A DNA stretch of 40,066 bases. It comes from a virus. Made by a program: the position numbers and the translations under genes. The notes beneath the pieces are model-generated. The model was not told where the DNA came from and ran no database searches. It was given only the letters and a program-made list of their open reading frames with translations. The stretch covers positions 1 to 40,066 of the IMG/VR virus record IMGVR_UViG_3300025418_000732; one strand, given 5' to 3'. Of this stretch, positions 1,255-36,032 are shown piece after piece (position 1 is the stretch's first letter; the number at the start of each line of letters is the position of its first letter).

Positions 1255-1298
1255 TATTAACCCCTTACATGAATAATATTGAAATGGTCACGCATAAA

Positions 1299-1607
1299 TT
1301 AATAAGCACAAATTTCCCCCAAAATTTTATTGTAAACGTCACGTTTAGAATGATAATACTCGGAGTTATTTTCACCGGCGCGAAAATTTGACCACTGATT
1401 CTGTTTAGAGAATCGTTCTATATCGCTTTGCAAATTATTATTAGAATAATGGGCTTTGAATCCATTAATATCATAATGCGCGATAAACCCAGAACAATTA
1501 TATAAATAATCGTATCCGGTTTTATTTAGTTTATTAATATCCTTGCAAGCGGCCAAAACGTTTTTAACTATTAGCGCTTGTTTTTTTGTGTCAATTGGTT
1601 TAATCAT
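1299..1607 (-). CDS. Hypothetical protein (102 aa)
   Basis: The 102-aa product is rich in Asn, Lys and Tyr (for example YDYLYNCSGFIAHYDINGFK) and has no membrane segment. The start at 1607 overlaps the stop of the upstream gene in an ATGA arrangement, so translation is likely coupled. No family is recognised. The 44-nt gap to the next gene holds only that gene's ribosome binding site. Confidence 0.6.
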   Translation of the reverse strand: MIKPIDTKKQALIVKNVLAACKDINKLNKTGYDYLYNCSGFIAHYDINGFKAHYSNNNLQSDIERFSKQNQWSNFRAGENNSEYYHSKRDVYNKILGEICAY

Positions 1608-1882
1608 AATTTTCCCGTTTTGACTTTGTTAATTGCTTCAGTGCGAGAATTGGCACGCACATAAACTACACGCGGCTCGCCGTCAACCCAGCCCCACACG
1701 CCCCACACGTTACACGGCGTGCCCCAGTAAGCCCCGCCCTTATCGTATCCGTCGCCCCCGCCTTGGTGGCGTGCATGAAAACACTTTGCACCGGCTAAAT
1801 TTGCGGGGTTATCCCCACGCCGGCCCATTGGTGCACCGCGCCGGCTTGAAACGTCAAAAAATGGGTTAAATTGTTTTCTCAT
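1604..1882 (-). CDS. Gly/Arg-rich hypothetical protein (92 aa)
   Basis: I place the start at ATG 1882 (MRKQFNPFFDVSSRRG) because AAGGGG sits 6 nt upstream. The earlier in-frame ATG at 1915 has no such site and would overlap the previous gene. The middle of the protein is rich in Gly, Trp and His and has two cysteines (AGAKCFHARHQGGG and GTPCNVWGVWGW). The C-terminal EPRVVYVRANSRTEAINK looks like a compact alpha/beta tail. Function is unknown. Confidence 0.6.
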   Translation of the reverse strand: MRKQFNPFFDVSSRRGAPMGRRGDNPANLAGAKCFHARHQGGGDGYDKGGAYWGTPCNVWGVWGWVDGEPRVVYVRANSRTEAINKVKTGKL

Positions 1883-1892
1883 GGTTTGCCCC

Positions 1893-2198
1893 TTATTTGC
1901 TTGTTTTGCGTGCACTGATTCGCACGCTGTAGAACGGATCGCCCGTTGACGTATGCGCGGTTATCAATTGACGCGACGGGTTAAATTTTGCGGCTATGCT
2001 TTGCCAATCAATCACGGCGCGGCCGTCGCTGTAAGTTATAGCGCACCGGTGCAAAGTGCCGTCGATTGTGCCGGCGCCGGTTTCAATTAATAAATCCTTT
2101 AGTTGTTTTTCTTGTTGCATTAAATCGGCAATTTCCGATTTAATAGCGGCCAATTCGTCGACGACATTGGATAAATTTAATTTAGTGATAATTTGCAT
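1893..2198 (-). CDS. Coiled-coil hypothetical protein (101 aa)
   Basis: The N-terminal half (about residues 8-42) is a heptad-like helix (VVDELAAIKSEIADLMQQEK) suggesting a coiled coil. The C-terminal half looks like a small beta domain (GTLHRCAITYSDGRAVIDW). ATG at 2198 is preceded by AAAGGATAG, a strong ribosome binding site that adjoins a TTTAGGG array. This layout is common among phage accessory proteins of unknown role. It is probably soluble. Confidence 0.65.
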   Translation of the reverse strand: MQIITKLNLSNVVDELAAIKSEIADLMQQEKQLKDLLIETGAGTIDGTLHRCAITYSDGRAVIDWQSIAAKFNPSRQLITAHTSTGDPFYSVRISARKTSK

Positions 2199-2207
2199 TT
2201 TCTATCC

Positions 2208-2254
2208 TTTAGGGTTTAGGGTTTAGGGTTTAGGGTTTAAGGGTTTAGGGTTTA
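2208..2254. repeat. TTTAGGG tandem repeat, larger array
   Basis: Four perfect TTTAGGG heptamers are followed by one TTTAAGGG octamer, another TTTAGGG and a final TTTA. The array fills the whole spacer between the 32-aa membrane peptide and the next leftward gene. It runs from the stop codon of the first (TTA at 2252-2254 read in reverse) to the AAAGGATAG ribosome binding site of the second. The unit equals the plant-type telomere heptamer. A role as a spacer, mRNA element or protein site is speculative. Confidence 0.95.
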
Positions 2255-2350
2255 TTTGACCAAAACGTCAAAATATTTCAAAGCAAAAAAGCATAGAACG
2301 GCCGCGATAGCCAATGCTGTTGAAAAATCCAAAAATTTATCCTTAATCAT
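2252..2350 (-). CDS. Single-pass membrane peptide (32 aa)
   Basis: This tiny leftward ORF encodes 32 residues: a short charged N-terminus (MIKDKFLDF), a hydrophobic segment of about 15 residues (STALAIAAVLCFFAL), then KYFDVLVK. It has a strong ribosome binding site (AAAGGATAG, 5 nt before ATG 2350), and its stop merges with the TTTAGGG array. It is probably an inner-membrane microprotein. Small phage membrane peptides can affect lysis timing or superinfection, but nothing here shows which. Confidence 0.6.
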   Translation of the reverse strand: MIKDKFLDFSTALAIAAVLCFFALKYFDVLVK

Positions 2351-2359
2351 TCTCTATCC

Positions 2360-2380
2360 TTTAGGGTTTAGGGTTTAGGG
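2360..2380. repeat. TTTAGGG tandem repeat, smaller array
   Basis: Three perfect TTTAGGG heptamers lie directly upstream of the ribosome binding site of the 32-aa membrane peptide. The arrangement matches the larger array at 2208-2254: CTATCC then (TTTAGGG)n on the plus strand. Confidence 0.95.
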
Positions 2381-2414
2381 TTTGGTTTTCATGCTTCGCG
2401 CTATTGCGTCGCAT
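2361..2414 (-). CDS. Possible leader peptide (17 aa)
   Basis: ATG at 2414-2412 opens a 17-codon frame (MRRNSAKHENQTLNPKP) whose last codons and stop are read from the TTTAGGG repeat. AGGATAG lies 9 nt upstream of the ATG. It would be the first translated unit after the predicted leftward promoter. It may equally be chance; only the ribosome binding site and position support it. Confidence 0.2.
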   Translation of the reverse strand: MRRNSAKHENQTLNPKP

Positions 2415-2423
2415 GGTGTAATT

Positions 2424-2454
2424 CTATCCTATAACGGCTATCATTTAAGGATAG
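2424..2454. promoter_or_regulatory. Inverted repeat, possible operator
   Basis: CTATCCT (2424-2430) and AGGATAG (2448-2454) form a 7-bp inverted repeat with a 17-nt centre, just downstream of the predicted leftward transcription start. It could be a repressor site or an mRNA hairpin. The left arm also doubles as the ribosome binding site of the possible 17-aa leader, so the symmetry may be incidental. Confidence 0.35.
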
Positions 2455-2466
2455 TTGACAAAAAAA

Positions 2467-2495
2467 ACAATAGATTTTTTGTAAAGTTATGTAAA
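2467..2495 (-). promoter_or_regulatory. Leftward promoter candidate
   Basis: On the minus strand TTTACA (2495-2490) is followed after exactly 17 nt by TATTGT (2472-2467), in an AT-rich stretch. Transcription would start near 2460 and enter the leftward operon. A TTGACA on the plus strand at 2455-2460 has only a weak -10 partner (TTTGTA), so I favour the leftward reading. Confidence 0.4.
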
Positions 2496-2508
2496 GTGCA
2501 AAATTAAT

Positions 2509-2690
2509 TTAGCGGCCCAGCACTTAGCGGCCCATGCACAATGCGGCCCATGCACTTAGCACAATGCACTTAGCGGCCCAGCACTCAGCGGCCCATGCAC
2601 TTAGCGGCCCATGCACTTAGCGGCCCATGCACTTAGCGGCCCATGCACTTAGCGGCCCATGCGCTTAGCGGCCCATGCAACAATGCACCG
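2509..2690. repeat. 16-bp iteron-like direct repeats
   Basis: Ten copies of the core GCGGCCC lie mostly 15-16 nt apart (cores starting near 2512, 2527, 2543, 2573, 2588, 2604, 2620, 2636, 2652 and 2668). Each is within a unit close to TTAGCGGCCCATGCAC. The array has an AT-rich flank on its left (2461-2510). A partial unit (TTAGCACAATGCAC) replaces one core near 2556-2569. Direct repeats beside an AT-rich tract resemble a replication origin or a protein-binding array near the packaging genes, but function is not shown. Confidence 0.85.
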
Positions 2691-3100
2691 ATAAAGCTAA
2701 GGGCCGTTAACAATGGCCGCTTATCCATCTACGCGCGAATCGGCCAAGATTAAGAAAAACCGATATACAATTCATCGATTCGGACATCATTTCACGCATG
2801 GGTTATGCGCTAAAGCACTGATTTAACATAATGACAGTTGTATCAAATGGGTTTTCCCCTATGCGGCTCGATTCGCTGCACCGATCCGGCCCGATCCGGC
2901 TTCGGCTTTGCACTTTTTGCGCCGGTTTAGGGTAAAAAGGGACTCTAGGCTCCCCCCCACCCTAAAAAAGCCCCTCCACCCTACCGCATTTTTCGCCTAC
3001 CAATCTAAAAATCATTTCCGCAATCGCCCAAAATTTTTTTTATTTTCTAATCTATTAGAGGTGCGAAATAGTTTCGCATCCATCCCCATGAGCATAATGC
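2691..3100. other. Gene-free stretch upstream of the terminase
   Basis: No convincing gene is seen on either strand here; with the iteron array and promoter elements, 2415-3136 is the longest gene-free interval in the window. It holds one DnaA-box-like 9-mer (TTATCCATC, 2721-2729), a repeated GATCCGGC (from about 2882), and a stretch rich in C-runs and AAAA near 2945-2980. The position just upstream of the small terminase is where a cos or pac site would be expected, but no such site can be identified by eye. Confidence 0.5.
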
Positions 3101-3574: not shown

Positions 3575-4844
3575 GGTTACGTTACCTACTCTTCATTCTG
3601 GTCAGGTGGAGATATGGCAAAACAAGAGTCGATTTAATGTAGTTTGCTGTGGTCGCCGTTGGGGTAAAACCAAGATGATGGTGACGATTGCGGCGGATAC
3701 GGCTTTGAAGGGTTTTCAGGCGGGGTTATTTACGCCTGAGTGGCGTCAGTTGGCGGAGCCGCAGACAGAGTTGCTGGATATATTGAAGCCGGTGACTAAG
3801 TCGGCCAGTAAGACTGAGGGGGTTATTCGCTGCACGACTGGTGGGGTGAATGATTTTTGGGTGGTGAATGACAACCCTTTGGCTGGGCGCGGGAGGACGT
3901 ACAAGGTTGGGTTTTTGGATGAAGCGGCTTTTACGAAGCCCGACATGATTGATATTTGGTCAAAGTCTATTAAGCCGACATTATTGACAACCAAAGGGTC
4001 GTTTTGGTTGTTTTCTACGCCCAATGGGGTGGACCCAGATAATTTCTTTTACCGTGCTTGGCATGATGAGGAGTTGGGGTTTAAGCAGTTTTATGCACCC
4101 ACAAGCACTAATCCTTATGTGCCTTTGGAGGAGCTGGAAAGTCTGAAGAGGACTGAGCATCCTTTGGTGTATCAGCAGGAGTATGAGGCCAAGTTCATTT
4201 CATGGGCCAATTCCACGTTTTTTAGGCTTGAGTATCTTTTAGAAAATGACCAGCCAGTAGAACCTGTCATGAAGTGTGATGGGGTCTATGCGGTGATGGA
4301 CTGCTCGGTGAAGAGTGGTAGTGAACATGATGCCACTGCCGTTGTTTATTATGGGTTTTCTAAGTATTACGGCCATAAGTTGGTGGTGTTGGATTGGGAG
4401 ATGTACTCGATTGATGCGGCGTCATTGGAGCATCTGGCCCCCAAGGTGATTGAGAAATGCGAGATGCTGGCGAGTACTTACCAGGCTCGGAGTGGCTCAA
4501 TGGGGTTGTTTGTTGAGGATGCTGCGGGTGGCAGTGTATTGATCCAACAGGCGAGGACTCGTGGATGGCCTGTTCGGGCGTTGTCCAGTCGTTTGATGAG
4601 TAAAGGTAAGGATGACCGAGCCTTTATTGTTGGGGGGCCAGTGGCAAGTGGTTTGTGTAAGATCAGTCGATATGCTTATGAAAAGGTATTGAGTTGGAAA
4701 GGAAGGTCGATGAATCACTTCCTGCATCAAGTAACTACCTTTAGAATTGGGGATAAAGAGGCTGCAAAGAGGGCAGATGACTTGCTGGACTGCTTTACTT
4801 ATGGTGTAGCGGTGGCGCTGACTGATTATTCGATGATGATTTGA
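3567..4844 (+). CDS. terL: Terminase large subunit
   Basis: The 425-aa packaging motor and nuclease has Walker A GRRWGKTK (residues 29-36), Walker B VGFLDEA (114-120) and a coupling motif around FWLFSTPNG (146-154). In the C-terminal nuclease the likely metal ligands are D245 (VMDCSV), D318 (FVEDAAGG) and the acidic cluster RADDLLD (402-408). The start is set at ATG 3567, behind GAGGGCGGG and overlapping terS by 8 nt; a TTG at 3546 is less likely. The length is normal for a one-piece large terminase and all key motifs are intact. Confidence 0.95.
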   Translation: MPKVTLPTLHSGQVEIWQNKSRFNVVCCGRRWGKTKMMVTIAADTALKGFQAGLFTPEWRQLAEPQTELLDILKPVTKSASKTEGVIRCTTGGVNDFWVVNDNPLAGRGRTYKVGFLDEAAFTKPDMIDIWSKSIKPTLLTTKGSFWLFSTPNGVDPDNFFYRAWHDEELGFKQFYAPTSTNPYVPLEELESLKRTEHPLVYQQEYEAKFISWANSTFFRLEYLLENDQPVEPVMKCDGVYAVMDCSVKSGSEHDATAVVYYGFSKYYGHKLVVLDWEMYSIDAASLEHLAPKVIEKCEMLASTYQARSGSMGLFVEDAAGGSVLIQQARTRGWPVRALSSRLMSKGKDDRAFIVGGPVASGLCKISRYAYEKVLSWKGRSMNHFLHQVTTFRIGDKEAAKRADDLLDCFTYGVAVALTDYSMMI

Positions 4845-4863
4845 TTATCGAGCAAGGGATGAT

Positions 4864-6285
4864 ATGAGCAACATAACCATTAACGGCACGGGGTATCCGA
4901 GTCCTTTGATGAACATTCTGAATATGGATGTGCAGCCAGGGGCGCAGTTGTCCTATGAGGACGCAAAAACTTTGTGGATATACCACCCTCTGGCCGCAAA
5001 GGTTGTGGAAAAGCCTGTTCGATTGGCGTTGTCTAAGCCACGGCAAATCAGCATTGGTTCTCCTGTTGAAGATTTGCTGATCAAGGCGTTCATGAAGGAA
5101 TGGAATGAGTTGGATTGCACCAACCACATTCGTGATTTGTTCCAGATTAGTCGGGTTTATGGTGTTGGGGCGGTTGTGGTGAATGCGCCTGATATGCCGA
5201 CCGATGCGCCGATTGATTTTTGGAAATTGGGTGAAGTAAGTGATTTGTATGTGAACGTGCTGGATGCTTTGAATCTGGCGGGTTCTGTGGTGACGAATCA
5301 GACGCCTAATGCGCCGGATTTCCAAAAGCCATTGAAATACATCACGGCTGCGGGTCAGCCTTATCACCCCAGCAAAAGCGTGACTGTGTTTCATGGCACG
5401 CCCATTTATTTGGATTTTCAAAGTTCGTCACTGAGCTTTTCTGGACGTAGTATTTTCCTTCGGGCTTTATACCCACTGAAGTCGTTTGTGCAGTCAATGC
5501 AGGTGGACGATTTGGTGTCGTTAAAGGCTGGGTTGTTGGTTGCGAAGATTCAGCAACCTGGCTCCATCATCAATAACCTGATGGAAAAAGCGGCTGGTTA
5601 CAAGCGTCAGTTGCTGCAAGAGGCGTCTACTGGAAATGTGTTGAGCATTCAGCCTGAGGAGAATATTGAGAGCATTGACCTTAATAATACCGATAAGGCG
5701 ATGACGGTGGCACGGGACAACATCATTGCCAATATTGCTGCGGCCAGTGATGTGCCAGCGATGTTGATCAAGGATGAGGCGTTCACCAAAGGGTTTGGTG
5801 AGGGCACTGAGGACACCAAGCAGATTGTGCAATACATTGATGGTTTGAGACATGAAATGCGACCTGCATTTGAGTTTTTTGATCGCATTGTGATGCACAG
5901 GGCTTGGAACCGTAACTTCTTTGAGGCTTTGAAGAATGAGTATCCTGAGTTGTACTCGGATGCGACTTATGAGAAGTTTTTCTTTGAGAGCAAAGATGCT
6001 TTTGAGGCCAAATGGCCCTCATTGATGGAAGAGCCTCACAGTGAGGTGATTAAGGGCGAAGAGGCCAAGCTGCACGGCATTACCGAGATATTGCGGACAT
6101 TGATGCCAGCGGTTGACCCTGAGAACCGTTCTAAATTAATTGAATGGGCTGAGAACAATATCAACAACATTCCTGAAATTTTCTCCAGTGAGTTGCGGTT
6201 GAATATTGATAATTTGAGGGATTATGAGCCGCCAGTGGCTCCGATGCCTGATGTTAAATTGCCGCCCCCATCCAGAGGGACGTAA
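4864..6285 (+). CDS. Portal protein (DUF1073 type)
   Basis: The 473-aa product lies directly after the large terminase, where the portal is expected. The motifs fit the DUF1073 portal family as I recall it: an early YHPLAAKVVEKP, then DLFQISRVYGVGAVVV, SIFLRALYPLKSF and the later DVPAMLIKDEAFTKGFGEG. It should form the dodecameric ring at the capsid vertex for DNA passage. ATG 4864 is preceded by AAGGGATGAT. The end overlaps the next ATG as TAATG. No extra C-terminal enzymatic domain is visible. Confidence 0.88.
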   Translation: MSNITINGTGYPSPLMNILNMDVQPGAQLSYEDAKTLWIYHPLAAKVVEKPVRLALSKPRQISIGSPVEDLLIKAFMKEWNELDCTNHIRDLFQISRVYGVGAVVVNAPDMPTDAPIDFWKLGEVSDLYVNVLDALNLAGSVVTNQTPNAPDFQKPLKYITAAGQPYHPSKSVTVFHGTPIYLDFQSSSLSFSGRSIFLRALYPLKSFVQSMQVDDLVSLKAGLLVAKIQQPGSIINNLMEKAAGYKRQLLQEASTGNVLSIQPEENIESIDLNNTDKAMTVARDNIIANIAAASDVPAMLIKDEAFTKGFGEGTEDTKQIVQYIDGLRHEMRPAFEFFDRIVMHRAWNRNFFEALKNEYPELYSDATYEKFFFESKDAFEAKWPSLMEEPHSEVIKGEEAKLHGITEILRTLMPAVDPENRSKLIEWAENNINNIPEIFSSELRLNIDNLRDYEPPVAPMPDVKLPPPSRGT

Positions 6286-7109
6286 TGGCTAAAGAGCGGT
6301 CATTTTCGACAGTTTTAGGCTTGGCAGTGGGGGCCATTGCATTGTATGGATTGCTGTCGAGTAAGCAGTTGAAGGACTGGGAAAAGGCTTTGATTGCGGC
6401 GGCGCTCTTTACGTTCATGCAGCCCAAGGAAATGAACGTGGTGCTTTATAAGCGCCTAGACGGCATTTATAAGGACATGGTGACAGATAAGAAGCTGCTG
6501 AAAAAGTATCCCAATATGGACCGTGGGGCGTTTGACAGGGCCAAGGACAAGATACTGCACCGACTGGCGCTGCGTAAGTTTTTGGGAGCGGATTTAATTG
6601 AAAAAAATTACAGAGAGTCAATTGACACCGTGGTTAGGCGTTTTATTGGATGGGCCAGCAGCGTACCTGCGGGTGGCATCAAAGAACTCGATAGGGAAGT
6701 CGAAAAACGCAAAATCCAAAAGGCTATCTCGAGCGTGGACGCAGAAGGCAAGTTTATTGTTCGAGATCAGATGCACAAATTCCAGACTGAGATTGAGGAA
6801 ATACTCAGCGTAGATGGACAGGCGATTGCGGCCAAGTGGCACTCACAGTGGCGAGTGCCAGGTTACAACTACCGTGAAAAGCACAAGCACATTGATGTGA
6901 GTGGTGAGGTGTTTGTGATTCGGGACAACTGGGCATTGCAGGGTAGGCTGATGAAGTTATCGGGCAGGAAGTATACGGATTCGATTATTCGCCCAGGCAT
7001 GGAGCCGAATTGCAAATGCGTTTATGAGTACATTTATTCATTATCTGACTTGCCTGATGATATGTTGACGGCCAAAGGTCGTGCAGCTATTGCGGCAAAG
7101 CTAAAATAG
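6285..7109 (+). CDS. MuF-like minor head protein
   Basis: The 274-aa protein follows the portal, as MuF-type head morphogenesis proteins usually do. Its C-terminal part carries the family's hallmarks: KWHSQWRVPGYNYREKHKHID (about residues 186-206), then FVIRDNWA, IRPGMEPNCKCVYEYIY. The N-terminus has a hydrophobic segment (about residues 8-25, VLGLAVGAIALYGLLSS) that is unusual for the family and could be a membrane-active or buried helix. It is probably incorporated into the prohead. Translation is coupled to the portal by TAATG. Confidence 0.75.
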   Translation: MAKERSFSTVLGLAVGAIALYGLLSSKQLKDWEKALIAAALFTFMQPKEMNVVLYKRLDGIYKDMVTDKKLLKKYPNMDRGAFDRAKDKILHRLALRKFLGADLIEKNYRESIDTVVRRFIGWASSVPAGGIKELDREVEKRKIQKAISSVDAEGKFIVRDQMHKFQTEIEEILSVDGQAIAAKWHSQWRVPGYNYREKHKHIDVSGEVFVIRDNWALQGRLMKLSGRKYTDSIIRPGMEPNCKCVYEYIYSLSDLPDDMLTAKGRAAIAAKLK

Positions 7110-7119
7110 GTCATACAAT
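7090..7119 (+). promoter_or_regulatory. Promoter-like element before the protease/scaffold gene
   Basis: TTGCGG (7090-7095), an 18-nt spacer and TACAAT (7114-7119) lie 5 nt before ATG 7125, and no ribosome binding site is seen. The -35 is weak. The case rests on its similarity to the elements at 3101, 11861 and 16746. Confidence 0.3.
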
Positions 7120-7124
7120 AAGAT

Positions 7125-9452
7125 ATGCCAACAGTAAGTCCAGCTCAAGAACGCTTAATGCAGGGCGTTGCACACAATCCCGCTTTCGCTAAGAAAGTGG
7201 GCATTCCCCAATCTGTTGGTAAAGAATTTGTTGGTGCTGATGAAGTGCCAGAAATTACTGACGATCCGATTCACGCATTGGTTCACCCAGATGATGGTGA
7301 CCCATGCTGGGAAGGTTACAAACAAGTGGGCATGAAGGAAAAGGGCGGCAAGCCCGTTCCTAATTGTGTGCCAGAAGATGATTCTGAAGCGTGGCAGAAA
7401 AAAGAAGGTAAGAACAAAAACGGCGGCTTGAATGAAAAAGGCCGTGAGTCTTACAACAAAGAGCATGGCGCTCATCTTAAAGCGCCCCAGCCCGAAGGCG
7501 GTCCGAGAAAAGAATCTTTTTGCGCTCGGATGCAGGGCATGAAAGAAAAGCTCACATCTGAAGAAACCAAACACGACCCAGATTCTAGGATTAATAAATC
7601 GCTTAGAAAATGGAAATGCAATGATGATGGTTTGGAGTCTGAAGTCATGCTGAATGATGAGGCTCAATTCCAATCTGCTGACACGTTACCCAAAGACCCT
7701 CAAGGTGGTCCTTTCACACGGGCAGCGGGGATTATGTTTGTCACGAATGACGGCGAAATCCTATTGATTCGGCGCGGTAATGGTGGAGATTATCCTGGCA
7801 CTTGGGCTGTTCCTGGGGGCCACCTCTGTGAGGGTGAATCCGATGAGCAAGCTGCAAGACGCGAGTGCAAAGAGGAAACGGGCATCGACTTCCAAGGCCC
7901 ACTGGAACGATTGCATGATGACGGGCAATTTGTCACGTTTCTTGCAAGAGGTGTGGAGAAGTTCCCCGTGCGACTCAACTATGAGTCAACCGGATACGAC
8001 TGGTGCAATCCAGATAACGCCCCCTCGCCCCTTCACCCAGGCCAAGCAGTTGCATTTCGAGTGGCCGGAGCTGGAACAGAATTAGATATTGCCCAGTTGA
8101 TGATGGAAGATATTCTTCCTAGTCCACAGCCCTATGCGAATATGCACTTGCTGAATATTCGCATTACGGGTACTGGTTTGGCGTATCGCAGCAAAATTGG
8201 TGAACACGTTTGGCGAGATGCCAGCTTGTATTTGAATCAAGAATTTGTTGACCGTTGTAATGGTTTGATGGTGATCATGGATCACCCAGACGGTTCTGTT
8301 TTGGATACAAAAGAATTTAAGGATCGAGCAATTGGCTCCATCATGTTGCCCTATATCAAGGGTGATGAGGTGTGGGGTATTGCGAAGATTTATGATGACA
8401 AGGCGATGGCTGAAATTTGCGAAGGCGATATTTCAACAAGTCCTGCGGTAGTATTTGACGAATTCAGTGGAAATACTACACTACGCACTGAGACTGGTGA
8501 GCCATTGCTTATAGAAGGTACTCCATTTCTTTTGGACCATATTGCGATTGTTACTAAATCGCATGGATCAAAAGGAGTGTGGGACAAAGGTGGCGATCCA
8601 GCCGGAGTTTTATTAACCAACCCTGAGGTGTCTGATATGACAGAGAAACTTGAGCCGAAGGCAGATGCCGCAGGCGATGCGTTTAGCACCATCCTGACCG
8701 AATTGAAAAAACTTTCAGTTCGCATGGATGCTATGGAAAATATGCCAGCTCCCCCGCTGGTGTCTGCCGCTGATAAAAAGCGTAAAGACGATGACGAATC
8801 CAAAATGGATGACGATGAGTCCAAAATGGACGATGACGATTCCAAAATGGATGATGACGACAAATATGTTGCTCGCAAAGGCGATGACGACATGAAGAAA
8901 AAAGACGATGACATGAAGAAAAAGAAGCGTAAAGACGCTGAAGGTTCTAATCCCCATGTTCATGGTCCTGCTGGCGAAATCAAGCCTGATGATGACGAAG
9001 ACATGAAGATGGACGATGACGAAGAAGAAGCAATGAAAGCTGACGAAGAAGAAGCCGCTATGGCTGATGCTCAAGCTCATTGCGACAGCGTCATGGCTGC
9101 ATTTGGCAAGTCTGCTGGCCGTCCTTTGAAGGGCGAAAACCTGATGGCTTATCGCAAGCGTCTGCTGCGCGGTGTTCAAGGCTATTCGGATAGCTGGAAG
9201 AATGTCGATCTGAAGTCCATCAAAGACAACGCCATGTTGGCTATTGCTGAAAAGCAAATCTACGCTGAAGCCTTGGCTGCTAGCAAAGCACCTGGCGCTT
9301 ATGCCGATGGTCAATTGATTGAGATGACTGAGCGTGATCGCGCTGGTCGTACCATCACCAAGTTCAAAGGTTCTATCTCTGCATGGCTGGATGACTTCAA
9401 GTTGCCCTCAATGCGTGTGACTGCCTTTAACCTCCCTAACAACCAACGCTAA
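7125..9452 (+). CDS. Fused Nudix / prohead protease (DUF2213) / scaffold
   Basis: The 775-aa multidomain protein begins with a motif common at the start of phage proteins (SPAQERLMQGVAHNPAFAKK). Residues about 55-170 are a basic region with FCARMQGMKEK and LRKWKC, recalling DUF6321. Next is a Nudix hydrolase domain (about 200-330) with a perfect Nudix box: G, then E after five residues, REC, EETG. A DUF2213-type prohead protease follows (about 345-485: VWRDASLYLNQEF, VIMDHPDG, STSPAVVFDEF, LDHIAIVTKSHG). The tail (505-775) carries alternating Asp and Lys runs and looks like scaffold. It should direct capsid assembly and maturation; the Nudix role is unknown. Confidence 0.8.
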   Translation: MPTVSPAQERLMQGVAHNPAFAKKVGIPQSVGKEFVGADEVPEITDDPIHALVHPDDGDPCWEGYKQVGMKEKGGKPVPNCVPEDDSEAWQKKEGKNKNGGLNEKGRESYNKEHGAHLKAPQPEGGPRKESFCARMQGMKEKLTSEETKHDPDSRINKSLRKWKCNDDGLESEVMLNDEAQFQSADTLPKDPQGGPFTRAAGIMFVTNDGEILLIRRGNGGDYPGTWAVPGGHLCEGESDEQAARRECKEETGIDFQGPLERLHDDGQFVTFLARGVEKFPVRLNYESTGYDWCNPDNAPSPLHPGQAVAFRVAGAGTELDIAQLMMEDILPSPQPYANMHLLNIRITGTGLAYRSKIGEHVWRDASLYLNQEFVDRCNGLMVIMDHPDGSVLDTKEFKDRAIGSIMLPYIKGDEVWGIAKIYDDKAMAEICEGDISTSPAVVFDEFSGNTTLRTETGEPLLIEGTPFLLDHIAIVTKSHGSKGVWDKGGDPAGVLLTNPEVSDMTEKLEPKADAAGDAFSTILTELKKLSVRMDAMENMPAPPLVSAADKKRKDDDESKMDDDESKMDDDDSKMDDDDKYVARKGDDDMKKKDDDMKKKKRKDAEGSNPHVHGPAGEIKPDDDEDMKMDDDEEEAMKADEEEAAMADAQAHCDSVMAAFGKSAGRPLKGENLMAYRKRLLRGVQGYSDSWKNVDLKSIKDNAMLAIAEKQIYAEALAASKAPGAYADGQLIEMTERDRAGRTITKFKGSISAWLDDFKLPSMRVTAFNLPNNQR
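8637..9452 (+). CDS. Possible nested in-frame scaffold protein
   Basis: Inside the fusion gene an in-frame ATG at 8637 (MTEKLEPKADAAGDAF) is preceded by a strong GAGGTG ribosome binding site 6 nt upstream. Initiation here would give a separate 271-aa scaffold: helix (NMPAPPLV region upstream), acidic and lysine-rich linker, and the conserved C-terminal part. The layout matches lambda C/Nu3, where the scaffold is made from an internal start of the protease gene. Whether the internal start is used is inferred. Confidence 0.45.
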   Translation: MTEKLEPKADAAGDAFSTILTELKKLSVRMDAMENMPAPPLVSAADKKRKDDDESKMDDDESKMDDDDSKMDDDDKYVARKGDDDMKKKDDDMKKKKRKDAEGSNPHVHGPAGEIKPDDDEDMKMDDDEEEAMKADEEEAAMADAQAHCDSVMAAFGKSAGRPLKGENLMAYRKRLLRGVQGYSDSWKNVDLKSIKDNAMLAIAEKQIYAEALAASKAPGAYADGQLIEMTERDRAGRTITKFKGSISAWLDDFKLPSMRVTAFNLPNNQR

Positions 9453-27124: not shown

Positions 27125-30100
27125 ATGATCAATATTATTTACGCAAATAACGCCCAGTCTACTCTTGCAGAGCCTCTCATTTCATCGGCAACTGTTGCCT
27201 ATTTAGCCCCAGGCACTGGCTCGTTGTTTCCGCAAATTTCTGGAAATCAATACTTTTGGTTGACATTCAGTGATGCGTCAACAGGGATGCTGACAGAAAT
27301 TGTCAAAGTTGTGTCTCTGTCTGGTGATGTTGCTAGTATTGTTCGCGCTCAACAAGGCACAACTGCTTTGAGTTGGAATGTTGGCGACTATGCAGCCAAC
27401 CTCTATACAGCCGCTGACGCCACCAATTTCGTTCAGACTACTGAACTTCAAGCCAATTCATACGCTTATTCTGCCGATACAGGCACAGCTAACAACTATG
27501 TTCTGAACTACAACCCTCCCATCACTCAAGTCAATGATGGGATGTCTTTGACGTTCAAACCAGCCAACTCCAATACTGGTGCTAGTTATGTAACTATCAA
27601 TGGCTTGCCTCCTGCTCAAATTATTTCTGAGCAAGGATTTTCGCTGCCATCCGGACAATTGTATGCTGGTGGTATGTATTTCATTACCCGTAGCGGCTCT
27701 TATTGGGTGTTAAGCGGTGCTGGTGGTGGTATTGGTCCTCAAGGTCCTCAAGGCCCAACGGGTCCAGTTGGCGCTCAAGGCAATACTGGTGCGACTGGCC
27801 CTACTGGATTGCAAGGCCCAACGGGTAGCCAAGGTGCTACTGGGTTGACAGGCCCAACTGGCGCACAAGGTAATGTTGGGCCTACTGGCCCTCAAGGTAT
27901 TCAGGGCGTTCAAGGTATTCAGGGCGTTCAAGGTAATACTGGCCCAACAGGCGCTCAAGGCAATACAGGTCCAACAGGCCCAACGGGATCAACCGGAGCC
28001 ACTGGTGCTACAGGCCCAACAGGGCCTACTGGCGCACAAGGTATTCAAGGCAATACTGGCCCAACAGGTTCTACTGGTGCAGTTGGCCCCACTGGCCCAA
28101 CAGGCGCTCAAGGCATTCAGGGCAATACTGGGCCAACAGGCCCAACTGGCGCACAGGGCATTCAAGGTAATGTTGGCCCAACAGGACCAACAGGTTCGCA
28201 GGGCAGCACTGGTAATACTGGGCCAACAGGTCCCACTGGTTCGCAGGGCAGCACTGGTAATACTGGGCCTACTGGCCCAACAGGCTCTCAAGGTACTATT
28301 GGTAATACTGGCCCAACCGGCCCGACAGGTACTTCTGGTAACTTGTATGCCACTACCAGTACAACGTCTTTAGCGATTCAGACGGGGAATATTACTTTAA
28401 CTGTTGGCACAAATCTGTCCTATACAGTTGCCCAGCCTGTCATTGTTGCCAATAGCTCTAGCAACTACATGGTGGGTGTCATTATTAGCTATTCGGCTAG
28501 TACTGGCGTCATGGTGGTTAATGTCGGCAGCAGTGTTGGTGGCGGCACATTTACCTCTTGGAATGTTAACTTAAACGGTGCATCTGGCCCTCAAGGCCCA
28601 ACTGGTGCAACTGGCCCTACAGGTGCGGCATCTAATGTTGCTGGACCTACTGGCCCAACAGGTGCGACAGGTGCAGCCTCCACAGTCGCTGGTCCGACAG
28701 GCCCAACTGGAACAACAGGCGCTGTTGGTCCGACAGGCCCAACGGGCGCACAGGGCAATGTTGGCCCGACAGGCCCAACGGGGACTACTGGCGTTCAAGG
28801 CCCAACTGGCCCGACAGGTGCAGCCTCTACAGTTGCTGGCCCGACAGGCCCGACTGGTGCAACAGGTGCTGCCTCTACTGTGCCTGGACCGACTGGCTCG
28901 ACTGGTCCTACAGGCCCAACGGGAACGACTGGTGCTGGTGGCCCGACTGGCCCGACTGGTGCTGGTGGCTTTACTGGCCCAACTGGCCCAACGGGTGCGA
29001 CTGGCGATACAGGCCCTACAGGCCCACAAGGTATTCAGGGCATTCAGGGTATTCAAGGCGTAGCAGGTCCCACAGGCCCGACAGGCGCTCAAGGCAATGC
29101 AGGTTCTAATGGCCCAACAGGTCCAACAGGAACTGCGGGTTCTGCTGGGCCAACGGGTTCAAATGGGCCAACCGGCCCGACAGGGTCTAATGGTGCGACA
29201 GGCCCAACTGGCCCTCAGGGTACTCAAGGTATTCAAGGTAATGCTGGCCCGACAGGTTCAAATGGTCCAACAGGCCCAACGGGTTCAACTGGTTCTACAG
29301 GCCCAACTGGCCCTCAGGGTATTCAAGGTAATACTGGACCTACAGGATCAACTGGTGCTACAGGCCCAACGGGTGCTACAGGTCCCACGACTTACCCTGG
29401 CGCTGGTATTGCTAATTCAACTGGTACAGCTTGGGGTACAAGTTACTCTATAAATGTAGCTAATGGCATTCCAGTATTTGATGCCAATAAAAACCTAACA
29501 ACAAATTGTTTGTTTGAAGGTTATACAAGCCAAGCTGCAAGCGGCACAACAATAACGCTTACTGCTGGCTCTGTCCAAAATTGGGCCATTACGGGTTCTG
29601 GTGGGCAAACTATTAAATTGCCCGATGCAACTACATTGCCAAATGGCGCTACGTTTACTTTTAATAACAATCAATCTAGCGGCACAATTGTTATTCAAAA
29701 CAATTCCGCAACAACGATTGCAACTGTTCAAACAGGTTCTTACATAACAGTTGTTTTGTTGAGCAACTCTATTGCAGCAGGTTCGTGGGATTTTCACAAT
29801 TCCGCTCCTTCTAATGTTAGCTGGTCAACCAACACGCTGAATTGGGCTGGTTCATACACAAACGGCACATGGAATGGTAATGCTATTGGTATAGCTTATG
29901 GCGGCACAGGCCAGACAACGGCTTCTGCTGCTTTTAATGCTTTGTCGCCCATCACATCAACGGGTGACTTGATTCTTGGCAACGGCAGCAATAGCGCCAC
30001 ACGTTTGGGTATTGGTACAAATGGTTATGTTCTGACAAGTAACGGCACGACCGCATCATGGGCGGCAGCTAGTGGTGTGAGTTTGTCAACTGCTAACACT

Positions 30101-30538
30101 TGGACAGCCACACAGACGTTTAACGGCTCTACAAGCACGTTTGGCACTACTCTGCTGGACAGCAACGAAACGGTCAACGTGGTGGCTGCTGCGCCCTCTA
30201 GCACGACTAACTTCTACGTTCAAAGCGGCTCGGTTCAATATTACACAACCAGCGCTGCTAACAACTGGACGCTAAATATCGCATTCAGTTCTGGCACAAG
30301 CATGAACACGGCTTTGTCAACAGGCCAATCGGTGACCTTCACGTTGATTACTACGCAAGGTTCTACGGCTTACTACAACAACGCTGTGACGATTGACGGC
30401 ACATCGGTGACGCCTAAGTGGATTGGTGGCGCACCTAGTGCTGGTAATGCGTCTGGACTTGATGTTTACCGCTATGCCGTTGTAAAAACAGGAAGTGCCA
30501 CATACACAGTTTTGGCAAGCCTTACACAATACAAATAA
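27125..30538 (+). CDS. Collagen-like tail fibre
   Basis: The 1137-aa product begins with the shared anchor ([38 protein letters not shown]). Residues about 201-405 and 487-755 are Gly-X-Y collagen repeats dominated by GPT and GXQ triplets. Residues about 406-486 are a globular break. The C-terminal third has small beta domains ([25 protein letters not shown]) and ends [25 protein letters not shown], a likely tip. The triple helix should give a long rigid or jointed shaft. The many Thr in Y positions are potential glycosylation sites. Confidence 0.88.
27725..29390 (+). repeat. Gly-X-Y collagen-like coding repeats in two blocks
   Basis: Two blocks (about 27725-28340 and 28583-29390) encode tandem 9-bp triplets such as GGC-CCA-ACA (GPT), with several silent variants of Gly, Pro and Thr codons. 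A non-repeat domain of about 80 residues separates them. Such low-complexity DNA can change length by recombination. Confidence 0.9.
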
Positions 30539-30547
30539 GGATTAGCA

Positions 30548-33500
30548 ATGCCACTTCAGCAAACTTCAGGTAATGTAACGCAAGATGCCTATGGTGGTGG
30601 TGCATCTGCGCCAGCACCTTTGTATGTAGAAAATGTTTTTAGCACTTATTTGTATAGCGGAACTGGTTCAAATCAAGCAATACCAAACGGAATTCCATTG
30701 GCATCAACTTCAACATGGAATACTATTCAATACGGCATCAATTTTCCTTATGGGCAAACATATTTTTCTACAACTGATAGTAGTGGAAATATTTATGTTT
30801 GCGGACAAACATCTCCTGATTCCAGTAATTTTTATGCTTTTATAGCAAAATTTAATTCTTCAAACGTTTTGCAATGGCAAAATTTTTTAATATCTAGCAC
30901 AGTTGGTATTTTTTCGGGAATTTGCTTAGATTCTTCCGGTAATTCTTATGTTGCCGGTTATGCAAGTGATGGAACTAATAACTTTGGAATTATTGCAAAA
31001 TATAATAGTAGTGGCACTATTCAATGGCAAAGAAAATTAACATATTCTTCAGGATGTACATACAATAATATTGCAATTGATTCATCAAATAATTTGTATG
31101 TTGCAGGACAAGGTTACGATGGAACAAATTATTACGGAATAATTGCAAAATATAACAGTAGTGGGTCATTGCAATGGCAACGAAAAATAGTTGAAGAAGG
31201 AAATGCACAATTCAACGGAATAGCCGTTGATTCAAGTAATAATGTTTATGTTACTGGTGGTGCAGTTAATTCAGGGAATAACTATACTTTAACCGTTAAA
31301 TATAATTCTTCAGGTTCATTGCAATGGGCAAGAAAGTATACAAATGTAAACGCGTCTAGAGCAACAGGATTGGTATTAGATAGTTCTTCTAATGTATATA
31401 TTGCAACATTTGGAGGTAGTTCTAATAATGTTGTTTATCTTCAATACAATTCATCGGGAACATTGCAATGGCAATATATTTTAAGTAATACAGGCCCATA
31501 TGGAAATTTGTGTTTAGATTCATCAAATAATATTTATATAACAGGCGCACAATCAAACGGTGGAAAATTTATATTAAAAACCAATTCTTCTGGTGTTATA
31601 TCTTGGGCTTTAAACGCATATACATTTGAATCTAATGTAAGCGTGCAATTTTTGTCTACTGACACATCTGGAAATCTTTATGTAAATGGCACTGGTGGTA
31701 TTGGATTAAATGATATTGCTGTAACTGCAATCATAAAACAAGATGGTTCAATTTCTAATGGTGGATATTCATTAGTTTTATCTTCAAATAATACTATTGC
31801 TTCATCATCAACATCTGGAACTGATTCTTCATCAAGTGCAACGGATTCCGCAGGAAGTGGAACAGATGCGGCAAGCACGGCAACAACCTCAAGTGGCACG
31901 GCACTTTATAGTATCTATAACCAACCTGCTGTTTCAACAACTGGTGGAATGGTTTGGATTAAAGATAGAAGTGCAACTAATTCAAATGTTGTTTTTGATA
32001 CTGTTCGTGGTGCAACTAAGTATTTAGTTACTAATTCAACAGTTGGGCAAACTACGGATGCAGCAACATTAACATCATTTACTGCGGATGGTTTTAATTT
32101 AGGTACTGATACTACTAATCTTGTTAATGGTTCTGATAATTATGCTTCATGGACATTCCGTAAAGCACCTAATTTTTTTGATATTGTGACGTATACGGGT
32201 ACAGGTTCTGTTCAAAACATTGCACATAATCTTGGCTCAACACCGGGGTGCATGATTATCAAAAAAACAAGTAGCACAGGAACTTGGATTATTTATTTTG
32301 CTGATAACGGTTCTGGATGGGGTGGTAATAGTTATTATTTGGGTTTAAATCTTACTGCCGCAGCAACAAGCACAGGATACCCCGGAGTTTGGGGGGCAAC
32401 AGACCCTACATCAACCCAATTTACTGTTGGTACAGATACAAACGTAAATGCGTCTGGTCAAACATACATTGCTTATTTGTTTGGTAATGGCGGTACAGGC
32501 GGTTTTGGATTGTCTGGAACTCAAGATATTATTAAATGTGGATATTACACGGGTAATGGAAGCACAAGTGGGCCATCTATAACTTTAGGATTTGAGCCTC
32601 AATGGGTTTTGACAAAAGCAGCATCACGAACTGGAGCATGGGCTATTAGTGATGTTATGCGACAAATGTCTCAAACAAATGATGCAGTTTTAAATCCCAA
32701 TACTACTGGTGCTGAAGCCGTTTTAGGCGCGCCTTTAATTATTCCAAGTGCAACAGGTTTTAAAGTAAGTTCAACTGACCAAAATTACAATAATTCTGGC
32801 GATACATATATGTATATAGCCATACGCAGAGGCCCAATGGCCATACCTACATCCGGAAATAGTGTTTTTACTCCTGTTGTGGATTTTTTATATGGCAGTT
32901 CTGCCGCAATCACTACCGGTTTTACAGAAGATTTATTAATACAAAATGAAAATAATGCTGCAAAAACAGGAAATATTTTTGATTGGGATAGATTAAGAGG
33001 GTCATCAAGTGCAAAAGGTGTTTATCTATTAACTAATAGCGCATCAGCGGAAACTTCACAATCAACATATGCAATAGGATTTGATATAAACGCTGGAATT
33101 TTTGATAATTTTATGGGTTCAAACTTTGGCATTAATGACAATGTAACTTATTGGAATTTTGCTAGAGCACCTGGATTTTTTGATATTGTTTGTTACATTG
33201 GAACAGGAAGCGTTACTACAATTAATCACAATTTGAATGCTGTTCCTGAACTAATGATTGGTAAAAGGCGTGGTGGAAATGCTGGATGGGGTGTCTATTC
33301 TGCGCCAACAGGTAATGCCAACAGATTAGTTTTGAATATTAATGCGGCAGTTGCAAGTGACACAAATTTATTAAATAGCACCAATCCAACAAGCACAATT
33401 GTTACTTTAGGTAATTCAGCTTATTTAAATGCTTTTTCACAAACACAAGTTTTATATTTATTTGCTAGTCTTTCAGGTGTATCTAAAGTTGGTTCCTATA

Positions 33501-33784
33501 CAGGAAACGGAACAGGGCAATCAATAGCTTGCGGGTTTGGTGCAAATGGGGCAAGATTCATTCTTATTAAGCGCACAGATTCAACGGGTGATTGGTATTG
33601 TTTTGATAGTGCAAATGGGCTTACATCAACTTCTAGCCCTTACACAAAATGGAATGCCGGTGGCGCACAAACCACAGGCAACAATGGAACATACGCATCT
33701 AGCGGTGGATTTACATTGGGGTCAACCGCTTCAACAACTACAAACATTTCATCAGCAAGTTATATTTTCTTAGCAATCGCATAA
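30548..33784 (+). CDS. AT-rich adhesin: seven-repeat beta-propeller in a DUF7483-like scaffold
   Basis: The 1078-aa protein begins MPLQQTSGNVTQDAYGGGAS and FSTYLYSGTGSNQAIPNG, which resembles the start of DUF7483-type phage fibres. Residues about 71-415 hold seven repeats of about 50 aa with DSSGNxYVxG and KYNSSGxLQW, a seven-bladed propeller pattern. A Ser/Thr linker follows (about 415-460). Then two DUF7483-like modules (GGMVWIKDRSATNSNVVFD, FFDIVTYTGTGSVQNIAHN, and FFDIVCYIGTGSVTTINHN). It lacks the anchor of the three fibres before it. Its DNA is much more AT-rich than the rest (15 G/C in 30841-30900). Confidence 0.78.
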   Translation: MPLQQTSGNVTQDAYGGGASAPAPLYVENVFSTYLYSGTGSNQAIPNGIPLASTSTWNTIQYGINFPYGQTYFSTTDSSGNIYVCGQTSPDSSNFYAFIAKFNSSNVLQWQNFLISSTVGIFSGICLDSSGNSYVAGYASDGTNNFGIIAKYNSSGTIQWQRKLTYSSGCTYNNIAIDSSNNLYVAGQGYDGTNYYGIIAKYNSSGSLQWQRKIVEEGNAQFNGIAVDSSNNVYVTGGAVNSGNNYTLTVKYNSSGSLQWARKYTNVNASRATGLVLDSSSNVYIATFGGSSNNVVYLQYNSSGTLQWQYILSNTGPYGNLCLDSSNNIYITGAQSNGGKFILKTNSSGVISWALNAYTFESNVSVQFLSTDTSGNLYVNGTGGIGLNDIAVTAIIKQDGSISNGGYSLVLSSNNTIASSSTSGTDSSSSATDSAGSGTDAASTATTSSGTALYSIYNQPAVSTTGGMVWIKDRSATNSNVVFDTVRGATKYLVTNSTVGQTTDAATLTSFTADGFNLGTDTTNLVNGSDNYASWTFRKAPNFFDIVTYTGTGSVQNIAHNLGSTPGCMIIKKTSSTGTWIIYFADNGSGWGGNSYYLGLNLTAAATSTGYPGVWGATDPTSTQFTVGTDTNVNASGQTYIAYLFGNGGTGGFGLSGTQDIIKCGYYTGNGSTSGPSITLGFEPQWVLTKAASRTGAWAISDVMRQMSQTNDAVLNPNTTGAEAVLGAPLIIPSATGFKVSSTDQNYNNSGDTYMYIAIRRGPMAIPTSGNSVFTPVVDFLYGSSAAITTGFTEDLLIQNENNAAKTGNIFDWDRLRGSSSAKGVYLLTNSASAETSQSTYAIGFDINAGIFDNFMGSNFGINDNVTYWNFARAPGFFDIVCYIGTGSVTTINHNLNAVPELMIGKRRGGNAGWGVYSAPTGNANRLVLNINAAVASDTNLLNSTNPTSTIVTLGNSAYLNAFSQTQVLYLFASLSGVSKVGSYTGNGTGQSIACGFGANGARFILIKRTDSTGDWYCFDSANGLTSTSSPYTKWNAGGAQTTGNNGTYASSGGFTLGSTASTTTNISSASYIFLAIA

Positions 33785-33793
33785 GGACAAATC

Positions 33794-34243
33794 ATGCAAA
33801 TTCGACTACGCTCAAATGGACAAGTAATGTTTGAGGAGGCTTTTCGTCAACACATTGCTTCCAACGGTGGCCCTACATGGGGTCAAACCACGACTGAAAT
33901 TCTTAACAAACTGCAAGCCGATGTGGTGTTTGATGGGCCTAGTCCTACGCTGACACACTACCAAGTCGCTAGTGCTGGCCCTGCTGTTGAAGAAAACGGT
34001 CAATGGTACACATCGTTTGTCGTGACCGACATGGACGCTGACGCCAAAGCAGCAACTGACGCAGCCCAAGCAACATCGGTACGCCAACAACGTGACGATA
34101 AGCTGTCTAAATGCGATTGGACACAAGTTGCTGATGCGCCAGTAGATAAAGCAGCATGGGCAACATATCGTCAAGCCTTGCGTGACTTGCCTAAAGAAGC
34201 TGGCTTTCCTTGGACAATCACATGGCCTACTGAACCCACCTAA
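33794..34243 (+). CDS. Tail fibre assembly chaperone-like protein
   Basis: The 149-aa product has an N-terminal globular part (IRLRSNGQVMFEEAFRQHI, LTHYQVASAGPAVEENGQW). Its C-terminal motif RQQRDDKLSKCDWTQVADAP with AWATYRQALRDLP and FPWTITWP is that of the phage tail assembly chaperone family (PF16778). These proteins help fold or attach fibres and usually follow the fibre genes, as here. It probably acts on the adhesin or the collagen-like fibre. RBS AAGGAC precedes ATG 33794. Confidence 0.82.
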   Translation: MQIRLRSNGQVMFEEAFRQHIASNGGPTWGQTTTEILNKLQADVVFDGPSPTLTHYQVASAGPAVEENGQWYTSFVVTDMDADAKAATDAAQATSVRQQRDDKLSKCDWTQVADAPVDKAAWATYRQALRDLPKEAGFPWTITWPTEPT

Positions 34244-34457: not shown

Positions 34458-36032
34458 ATGCCGTTCAGCTCGGCATCGGGCAAAGACTACATTAAGTCTT
34501 TGCGTCTGGCAGGGAAAAGAATTGTAGACATTGGTGCTGGTAGTGGCACATACAAAAAACTTCTCCCCGAACTATCAAGTCACTGGACCGCCGTAGAAAT
34601 TTGGCAACCCTATATTGAAAAGTATGGGCTTCATGATCTATACGATGAAGTCATTTGCGCCGATGCCAGGACAATTGACTATACAAATTTTGATATGGCT
34701 TTTGTTGGCGATGTGCTGGAACACATGACATCTGATGATGCCAAAGCACTGCTAACAAATCTCAAGTCATCATGCCGAACAGTCATTGTCAGCATTCCCT
34801 TGGGCTACTATCCCCAAGATGAATACGACAACAATCCTTATGAAAAGCACATAGTGGATAACTATTCACACGAACAAGTTATTGAACTGTTTGGCAAGCC
34901 CACAGAGTACCAGATTGATCAAGAAATCGGGGTTTATGTGTACCGCAAACTAAAGATTGCCATCTCGGCCATCAGCAAAAACGAATCACAATTTGTTCAG
35001 CGTTTTTGCGAATCTGCAAAAGACGCTGACCTGATTCAAATTGCTGATACTGGTTCCACAGACGACACCGTTAATGTTGCTGAAGAATGCGGTGCAACCG
35101 TCCATCACATCTGCATTTCCCCTTGGCGCTTTGACCATGCGAGAAATGCCGCTATTGCACTCCTCCCCAAAGACATTGATGTTGTTATTGCTCTGGACCT
35201 AGATGAAGTCATGGAGCCAGGTTGGCGAGAAGAAATAGAACGTGTCTGGGTTGAAGGTACAACTCGTCTGCGCTATCAGTTTGACTGGGGTGCTGGCATC
35301 AGGTTCTATTACGAAAAAATCTTTGCCCGTCATGGCTATCATTGGCATCACCCTGTCCATGAGTATCCTGTACCGGACAAGCGCATACAAGAAGTCTACG
35401 CTCATACCGACAAGTTATTGGTCAGCCATTACCCTGACCCTACCAAGTCCAGAGGGCAATACTTGCCTCTCCTACGCATGGCCGTAGAAGAAGACCCACA
35501 TTGCCCAAGGAATGCTTTTTACTTTGCCCGTGAACTGACGTTCTACCAATTGTGGGAAGAGGCTGTTGACCGCCTGAAGTATTACCTCAATATGCCTGAG
35601 GCGACTTGGGTCAATGAACGTGGTTATGCCATGCGTTTACTCGGCCAAGCCTATGACAATTTAAATCAATATGATGAGGCGATGGCTTGGTATCGCAGAG
35701 CTGTTGCAGAGTCTCCCAATACCCGTGAGGTATGGGTTGATTTGGCAATGGCTTGTTATATGCGTAAAGACTGGGAGAGTTGCCGGTATGCGGCCAAACA
35801 GGCTTTGAATATCAAAGACAAGGCTTTGGTCTATACCTGCGATCCAGCGGTATGGGGCGGTAAACCCCATGATCTTTTGGCAATAGCTGCTTGGAATTTG
35901 GGTGATGTAGAAACAGCTATTGAGCAAGGGCAATTGGCGGTTGATTTGGAGCCGTATGATTTAAGGTTAAAAACCAATCTGGATCATTACTTGGCAGCAA
36001 ATCAAGATGAGGGTAAACTCGCTGTAGATTAA
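34458..36032 (+). CDS. Methyltransferase - GT2 glycosyltransferase - TPR fusion
   Basis: The 524-aa protein has three parts. Residues 1-165 are a SAM methyltransferase (motif I VDIGAGSG 23-30, later GDVLEHM). Residues about 166-350 are a GT2 glycosyltransferase (AISKNESQFVQRF, ADTGSTDDT, DLDEV as the DxD metal/sugar site, and WRFDHARNAAIALL as in TPR-associated GT2 enzymes such as SunS). Residues about 355-514 are TPR-like helical repeats (GYAMRLLGQAYDNLNQYDEA, VWVDLAMACYMRKDW). It would transfer, and perhaps methylate, a sugar on a protein substrate. Position after the fibre genes suggests a virion substrate. Confidence 0.82.
   Translation: MPFSSASGKDYIKSLRLAGKRIVDIGAGSGTYKKLLPELSSHWTAVEIWQPYIEKYGLHDLYDEVICADARTIDYTNFDMAFVGDVLEHMTSDDAKALLTNLKSSCRTVIVSIPLGYYPQDEYDNNPYEKHIVDNYSHEQVIELFGKPTEYQIDQEIGVYVYRKLKIAISAISKNESQFVQRFCESAKDADLIQIADTGSTDDTVNVAEECGATVHHICISPWRFDHARNAAIALLPKDIDVVIALDLDEVMEPGWREEIERVWVEGTTRLRYQFDWGAGIRFYYEKIFARHGYHWHHPVHEYPVPDKRIQEVYAHTDKLLVSHYPDPTKSRGQYLPLLRMAVEEDPHCPRNAFYFARELTFYQLWEEAVDRLKYYLNMPEATWVNERGYAMRLLGQAYDNLNQYDEAMAWYRRAVAESPNTREVWVDLAMACYMRKDWESCRYAAKQALNIKDKALVYTCDPAVWGGKPHDLLAIAAWNLGDVETAIEQGQLAVDLEPYDLRLKTNLDHYLAANQDEGKLAVD

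Follow-up and report, generated by a model that had tools for sequence, protein, structure and literature searches.

How does a complete beta-propeller come to lie within a phage tail-fibre gene, and what is it likely to do there? The question is raised by a gene at positions 30548 to 33784 of IMG/VR record IMGVR_UViG_3300025418_000732, a stretch of 40,066 bases that is referred to here as the window. An earlier note on this DNA proposed that the start of the protein and its part after about residue 465 are contiguous pieces of a DUF7483-type fibre, that an entire seven-bladed propeller was inserted between them, and that the repeats may bind a host surface carbohydrate or protein. Homologous loci are cited below by number (L003, L005 and so on).

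The Fibre Gene and Its Surroundings

The window matches terminase, portal, tail sheath, baseplate wedge and tail-fibre families. Because it encodes tail sheath and baseplate wedge matches, it belongs to a contractile-tailed phage, presumably a freshwater one judging from the metagenome names. The 1078-aa reading frame at 30548-33784 contains no internal stop. Pfam DUF7483 (PF24299) matched the protein in two stretches (E=3.1e-88; 296.5 bits against a cut-off of 27), the best of which covers residues 461-760 at profile positions 22-327. Pfam SBBP matched in four stretches (E=7.7e-16; 58.2 bits against a cut-off of 20.5). The features of the gene and its two neighbors are as follows.

27125..30538, + strand: collagen-like fibre gene directly upstream (Pfam Collagen, E=1.5e-59)
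30548..33784, + strand: DUF7483 tail-fibre gene with inserted propeller, 1078 aa (open frame; Pfam DUF7483 and SBBP)
30548..30625, + strand: N-terminal module, residues 1-26 (MPLQQTSGN...), common to L005, L006, L012 and L003; residues 1-20 have low pLDDT
30626..30685, + strand: first two beta-strands of DUF7483 unit 1, 5' of the insert, residues 27-46; the strands match those of insert-free L006
30686..31936, + strand: inserted cassette, residues 47-463, bounded by the break and resumption of DNA homology with L005, L006 and L012
30716..31735, + strand: seven-bladed beta-propeller, residues 57-396 (28 predicted strands, PDB matches, seven blade repeats)
31745..31936, + strand: heptad-repeat stalk and linker, residues 400-463 (seven-residue strand spacing at 418-449; resembles the C-terminal heptads of free-standing propellers)
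31937..32842, + strand: remainder of the first DUF7483 copy, residues 464-765 (best Pfam stretch, 461-760)
32843..33781, + strand: second DUF7483 copy without insert, residues 766-1078 (second Pfam stretch; homologues)
33794..34243, + strand: phage tail assembly chaperone gene directly downstream (Pfam Phage_tail_APC, E=1.8e-22)

Residues 1-26 are a probable virion attachment module. The upstream collagen-like protein has 1137 aa with long GPTGPTG-type repeats. Near the fibre gene, one protein (34458-36032; 98.8% identical in L005) carries methyltransferase, family-2 glycosyltransferase and TPR matches. Tandem arrays occur in a spacer (2208-2254, 2360-2383 and 2509-2679) and at 1-95; they consist of TTTAGGG heptamers, a 16-bp unit (TTAGCGGCCCATGCAC) present about 11 times, and CCGCAGA heptamers at the end of the record.

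Boundaries of the Insert

A whole-protein scan of viral contigs provided 44 loci. Many homologues are only about 640-680 aa long; they match window residues 1-51 and 464-1078 and have no residues, or just a few, between these two parts. DNA homology with the window extends to 30666 in L005, 30686 in L006 and 30688 in L012, and begins again at 31936, 31932 and 31937, respectively. The insert therefore occupies approximately 30686-31936, or residues 47-463. Its GC content is 33%, compared with 38-42% in the remainder of the gene and 46% in the window.

The insert-free protein of L006 covers DUF7483 profile positions 6-327 unbroken, and its N-terminal residues align with residues 1-53 of the window protein. 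Residues 27-46 of the window protein align with L006 sequence that matches the profile from position 6 onward, so the start of the profile is retained and has been split off by the insert. Thus, the two flanks are contiguous pieces of DUF7483, as had been proposed. Between them are seven repeats, each beginning with DSS or DTS (residues 77, 128, 178, 228, 278, 324 and 372), which align as seven blades of 46-51 aa starting at about 69, 120, 170, 220, 270, 316 and 364. The propeller is an insertion at this site: insert-free homologues read through it, and DNA homology is present on both sides. Two refinements to the earlier note are that the cassette includes a heptad stalk (about 400-463) and that a second, uninterrupted DUF7483 copy reaches the C-terminus. 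A Pfam scan of the whole window protein with E up to 1 identified no Intein/Hint domain. The LamG profile matched none of the window ORFs of at least 60 aa, and the propeller occupies the site instead.

Structural Models of the Insert and the Fibre

The AlphaFold2 model of the window protein (mean pLDDT 85.1, pTM 0.70) was calculated from a 44-sequence alignment in which 23 insert-free rows had about 15 N-side residues set on the far side of the insert. It predicts 28 strands at residues 57-396, seven sets of four, beginning with a single N-terminal strand, continuing with six groups of four and ending with three strands. This is the usual closure of a seven-bladed propeller, read here from the strand order of a monomer model. 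Structure prediction, which the earlier note had suggested, therefore yielded a propeller of 7 x 4 strands and not a set of blades that fails to close. When the propeller was compared with VIA-align, it matched CylK (7ron; Z 44.0 over 344 residues) and a designed seven-bladed propeller (7bie; Z 31.8 over 275 residues). Short strands recur every seven residues at 418-449, in the predicted stalk.

The insert-free model of L006 (pLDDT 90.3, pTM 0.88) has strands at 30-36 and 42-45 before the site and at 55-61 after it. The window model has strands at 31-37 and 43-45 before the insert and at 467-473 after it. Since these flanking strands correspond, the insert is predicted to lie within one beta-beta loop. 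A solved relative was also sought for the DUF7483 fold, and the candidates were too weak to adopt: Foldseek gave one PDB match at E<=0.001 with TM below 0.2, and the best VIA-align Z was 5.8. The DUF7483 units matched SPP1 Dit weakly (Z 3.8), and the Dit family was absent among the Pfam matches.

Occupancy of the Site in Related Fibres

The same site has been used repeatedly and by alternative cargos. When all scans were pooled, 259 unique DUF7483 ORFs were obtained: 213 were contiguous through the site, 12 carried a propeller, 14 carried a LamG domain and 20 were unreadable. Three of these scans were aimed at carriers, so that 26 of 259 overstates the carrier share and is not a prevalence. 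The suggested search for homologues without a propeller thus found them in the majority; a propeller present in all homologues, the outcome that would have spoken against an insertion, was not seen. When the query was restricted to the sequence preceding the site, which made the scan blind to inserts, carriers were present at six of 80 loci. Two of these (L149 and L003) belong to the window's own group, and four (L154, L162, L167 and L201) carry Laminin_G_3; L222, from the same scan, has no DUF7483 match. None of the 259 ORFs contained an insert of at least 25 aa inside a single DUF7483 profile match. LamG was found elsewhere, between units, in two ORFs (L040 and L425). One additional partial ORF with LamG at the site (L044) falls outside both the census and the DUF7483 trees.

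The LamG carrier L148 was recovered in a bacterial genome bin; its contig is probably of phage origin. Among cultured phages, Roseobacter phage CRP-603 has a gp52 of 902 aa that carries 241 inserted residues at the site, although the profile match that precedes it is weak (0.8 bits). Neither the LamG profile nor Pfam identified LamG in this insert, which is LamG-like by eye. In CRP-1 and CRP-4, two phages of host FZCC0023, DUF7483 is contiguous through the site.

Several other arrangements were observed. L227 has two DUF7483 fibre genes (1125-3071 and 4276-7458), one without propeller blades and one with a propeller. The propeller carrier at L304:4357-8628 is 1424 aa long and extends about 290 residues beyond its DUF7483 part. 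L019:682-2997 shows another module combination, with a fibronectin type III domain ahead of DUF7483. The DUF7483 genes on Candidatus Gracilibacteria contigs (L130, L137, L139 and L141) are fragmented when translated with table 11, the pattern expected if TGA encodes a residue.

Exchange at the Locus in Close Relatives

Cargos are exchanged between close relatives, and one locus is found in three states: empty, LamG and propeller. In L005 the downstream proteins are 95.4%, 94.4% and 98.8% identical to those of the window and the end of the upstream collagen-like gene is 85% identical, while the fibre is 56% identical and has Laminin_G_3 (E=4e-17) at the same junction. L006 and L039 have an empty fibre between flanking proteins 91-96% identical to the window's.

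L003 carries a cassette 96% identical to the window's, with a first DUF7483 body 58% identical and a second copy 98% identical. Between the two genes, synonymous divergence (dS) is low in the insert (0.041) and in the second DUF7483 copy (0.081) but reaches 0.841 in the first copy. This contrast along a single gene is strong evidence for intragenic recombination. The insert has a dN/dS of 0.44 on 29 differences, which is consistent with maintained function. In addition, L304 (propeller) and L380 (LamG) have mutually nearest cores (54% identical, and 64% in the second half); as judged from these identities, the pair is a cargo swap between related backbones.

Phylogenetic History of the Cassette

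Trees of the DUF7483 core were calculated first for 219 rows with enough columns and then for 95 selected rows (all 26 carriers and 69 empties). All trees were quick searches with weak inner support (40 of 75 propeller-tree branches are open), and recombination breaks the assumption of a tree; the change counts below should be read accordingly. The core tree required 10 changes for the 12 propeller carriers and 14 for the 14 LamG carriers, of which well-supported branches forced at least 7 and at least 9, respectively. A single clade of propeller carriers on the core was rejected (lnL difference 361.8, p-AU 1.77e-14). The propeller tree (78 rows) required 5 changes for the fused forms, compared with 11.3 when labels were shuffled, and a single clade of fused propellers was compatible with the AU test (lnL difference 2.07, p-AU 0.475). 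In these analyses L309, with only five blades, was used in the core trees and left out of the propeller tree, and L289, a near copy of L261, was counted in the propeller tree. L281, truncated at its contig end, received no state when changes were counted and was grouped with the fused forms, 13 in all, for the AU test. Two alignments (A4 and A6), built from propeller pieces that overlap, yielded self-identity only and were discarded. The LamG domains at the site required 12 changes for 14 rows in a 301-row FastTree tree of low resolution, with starred branches forcing 5.

The DUF7483 backbones of the carriers are not one clade and their propellers possibly are, which suggests that recombination probably carried the cassette from one backbone to another. 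The simplest reading of these sequences is a single capture of the cassette, or a small number of captures, with later transfer between backbones. The alternative, that each carrier lineage acquired its propeller by a separate insertion, appears somewhat doubtful to us. The 10 changes on the core tree, at least 7 of them forced, are what it predicts, and even the best propeller tree retains 5. However, fused propellers cluster well beyond shuffled labels and fit one clade at p=0.475, and L003 is a direct case of a backbone exchanged under a kept cassette. A domain ancestral to the site and deleted in most homologues is very unlikely. The change counts give no direction and so leave room for it, but the many empty forms make gain likelier than loss: the site is empty in 213 of 259 ORFs, with near-constant spacing in those read for spacing. 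Moreover, two unrelated folds occupy the same point, and their carriers are scattered over the core tree. Scarcely probable at all is a gene fusion, in which a propeller protein gained a C-terminal DUF7483 and the N-terminal strand segment is a generic attachment motif. Free propellers do stop at the heptads, where fused ones run into DUF7483. Nevertheless, residues 27-46 correspond to a segment within the Pfam DUF7483 profile (in L006, which covers 6-327) and to the first two strands of the insert-free model, DNA homology lies on both sides of the insert, and the segment also remains with LamG inserts. Capture followed by recombinational spread is thus the history that we prefer.

Free-standing Propellers and Possible Donors

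A scan with three blades, followed by blade profiles, identified 99 ORFs with at least four blades, of which 17 (duplicates included) are fused to DUF7483. Most unfused ORFs are about 420-550 aa and contain a short N-terminal module and five to seven detected blades; those examined mostly have C-terminal heptads of the (SLTDAAS)n kind. In the fused proteins the heptads continue through a short linker into a GG-M/L-VWIK motif, whereas free propellers end at the heptads. The N-terminal modules of the free propellers resemble those of DUF7483 fibres by eye (the MSKRYPGG type; also L231 and the fusion L235), and a separate DUF7483 gene lies near some of them (L068/L287, L265, L267, L270, L286 and L291). 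Twelve loci (L236, L240, L244, L250, L255, L257, L259, L260, L262, L269, L272 and L301) have two free-standing propeller genes each, possibly a duplicated fibre pair. Beyond what the earlier note described, therefore, are a recurrent site that also takes LamG, a heptad stalk within the cassette and a free-standing phage version of the propeller.

Bacterial donors were also sought. A tblastn search of plasmids with the propeller gave only distant matches (18 records, all below 60% identity). Bacterial genomes matched at E<=1e-10 in 1 of 299 in one phylum sample and 18 of 296 in another. Within the fetched loci, the best blastp matches after the window's own group and L003 were phage proteins at about 36-45% identity. 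Thus, for the bacterial donors that the earlier note had suggested looking for, these matches speak neither for nor against. Cultured phages gave 74 matching records, all below 60% identity, including Nitratiruptor phage NrS-2, a Leptospira phage and cyanophages. In the tail fibre of NrS-2 (L048), seven blades were matched and DUF7483 was not.

Proposed Function of the Inserted Module

The reading favored here, at a probability of roughly 0.8, is that the propeller and its heptad stalk form an exchangeable receptor-binding head, held in a loop socket of the DUF7483 tail fibre. The fibre body would be a row of about six beta-sandwich units of some 100 residues, making up two DUF7483 copies (a count from predicted strands and sequence). 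In the first unit, the loop between strands 2 and 3 has received a complete module, namely a propeller predicted to close with seven blades and, after it, a heptad-repeat stalk; in related phages the loop is mostly empty or filled with LamG. The ends of LamG and of the propeller lie close together, so that both would suit a loop. The propeller module, which also stands free in phages behind similar N-terminal modules, has probably moved among DUF7483 backbones by recombination. The genomic setting and the neighboring chaperone gene suggest a virion fibre, which would be carried on the contractile tail. The DUF7483 units would then serve as the shaft, and the propeller as a laterally displayed head that recognizes a host surface glycan or protein and may influence host range. 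A swappable receptor-binding head is likely because both cargos are common recognition folds, phage propellers with known or proposed receptor roles are described, and evolved Dit proteins have comparable insertions.

It is unlikely that the propeller is instead an enzyme, for example one acting on host surface glycans. The best structural match, CylK, is an enzyme (Z 44.0), and polysaccharide lyases are among the Foldseek matches. But the CylK match begins at chain residue 250, which places Y37, the residue that a CylK mutant entry gives in its title, outside the aligned part; the lectin propellers PLL2, PLL3 and PHL were also matched by Foldseek, and LamG, the other cargo found at the site, is of a lectin-like type. 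A binding head is thus retained as the preferred reading. A broader proposal, to which we would give even odds, is that freshwater and marine phages use the loop between strands 2 and 3 in DUF7483 unit 1 as an all-purpose socket. Unrelated folds (propeller, LamG and possibly others) would be swapped there by recombination at one fixed junction, with host recognition changed inside the fibre and not at its tip, and free-standing propeller genes would act as a reservoir.

These results provide a natural series of three states, in which one fibre gene of closely related phages is empty, holds LamG or holds a propeller, and they point to a natural site for insertions in a fibre family that is widespread and uncharacterised. 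They also bring to light a family of free-standing phage propeller proteins. Since a cultured relative with an insert exists (CRP-603), the role of the internal loop in host recognition is directly testable.

Comparison with Known Phage Systems

No paper that mentions DUF7483 was found in the open-access literature searched. In the open-access titles and opening lines of abstracts searched for propellers, lectins or inserted domains in tail fibres, this arrangement was not reported. The evolved Dit of 936 lactococcal phages, in which a BppA-type CBM is inserted in a tail protein (PMC6669499), is similar in being a structural tail protein with an internal host-binding module present in some phages only. 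It differs in that a Dit scaffold carries a BppA CBM, whereas here a multi-unit DUF7483 fibre carries a propeller or LamG.

Two phage propellers are also comparable. Gp45 of Staphylococcus phage phi11 is a receptor-binding protein with a five-bladed propeller (PMC4901313); like the cassette, it is a beta-propeller in a tail receptor-binding protein and has an N-terminal strand that completes the last blade. Its five blades, however, lie between stem and tower domains, and the available text of that source reports no loop insertion or fold exchange (PMC4901313). PhiKZ gp131C, which has a seven-bladed propeller and lies peripherally in a contractile-tail baseplate, has been speculated to be a receptor binder or an enzyme (PMC4901313). 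It shares the blade number and the contractile tail; its propeller is a C-terminal domain and not an insert. The free-standing SBBP propellers share the seven-bladed module and the heptad tail with the window cassette, at about 36-45% identity, but lie outside DUF7483 behind an N-terminal module alone.

Lastly, fragment shuffling is common in tail fibres and spikes (PMC10684548), and the available parts of that source make no mention of propellers, lectins or one loop reused by unrelated folds. Fibre mosaicism is thus an established principle, and the DUF7483 loop with its propeller or LamG is a new variant of phage-fibre modularity.
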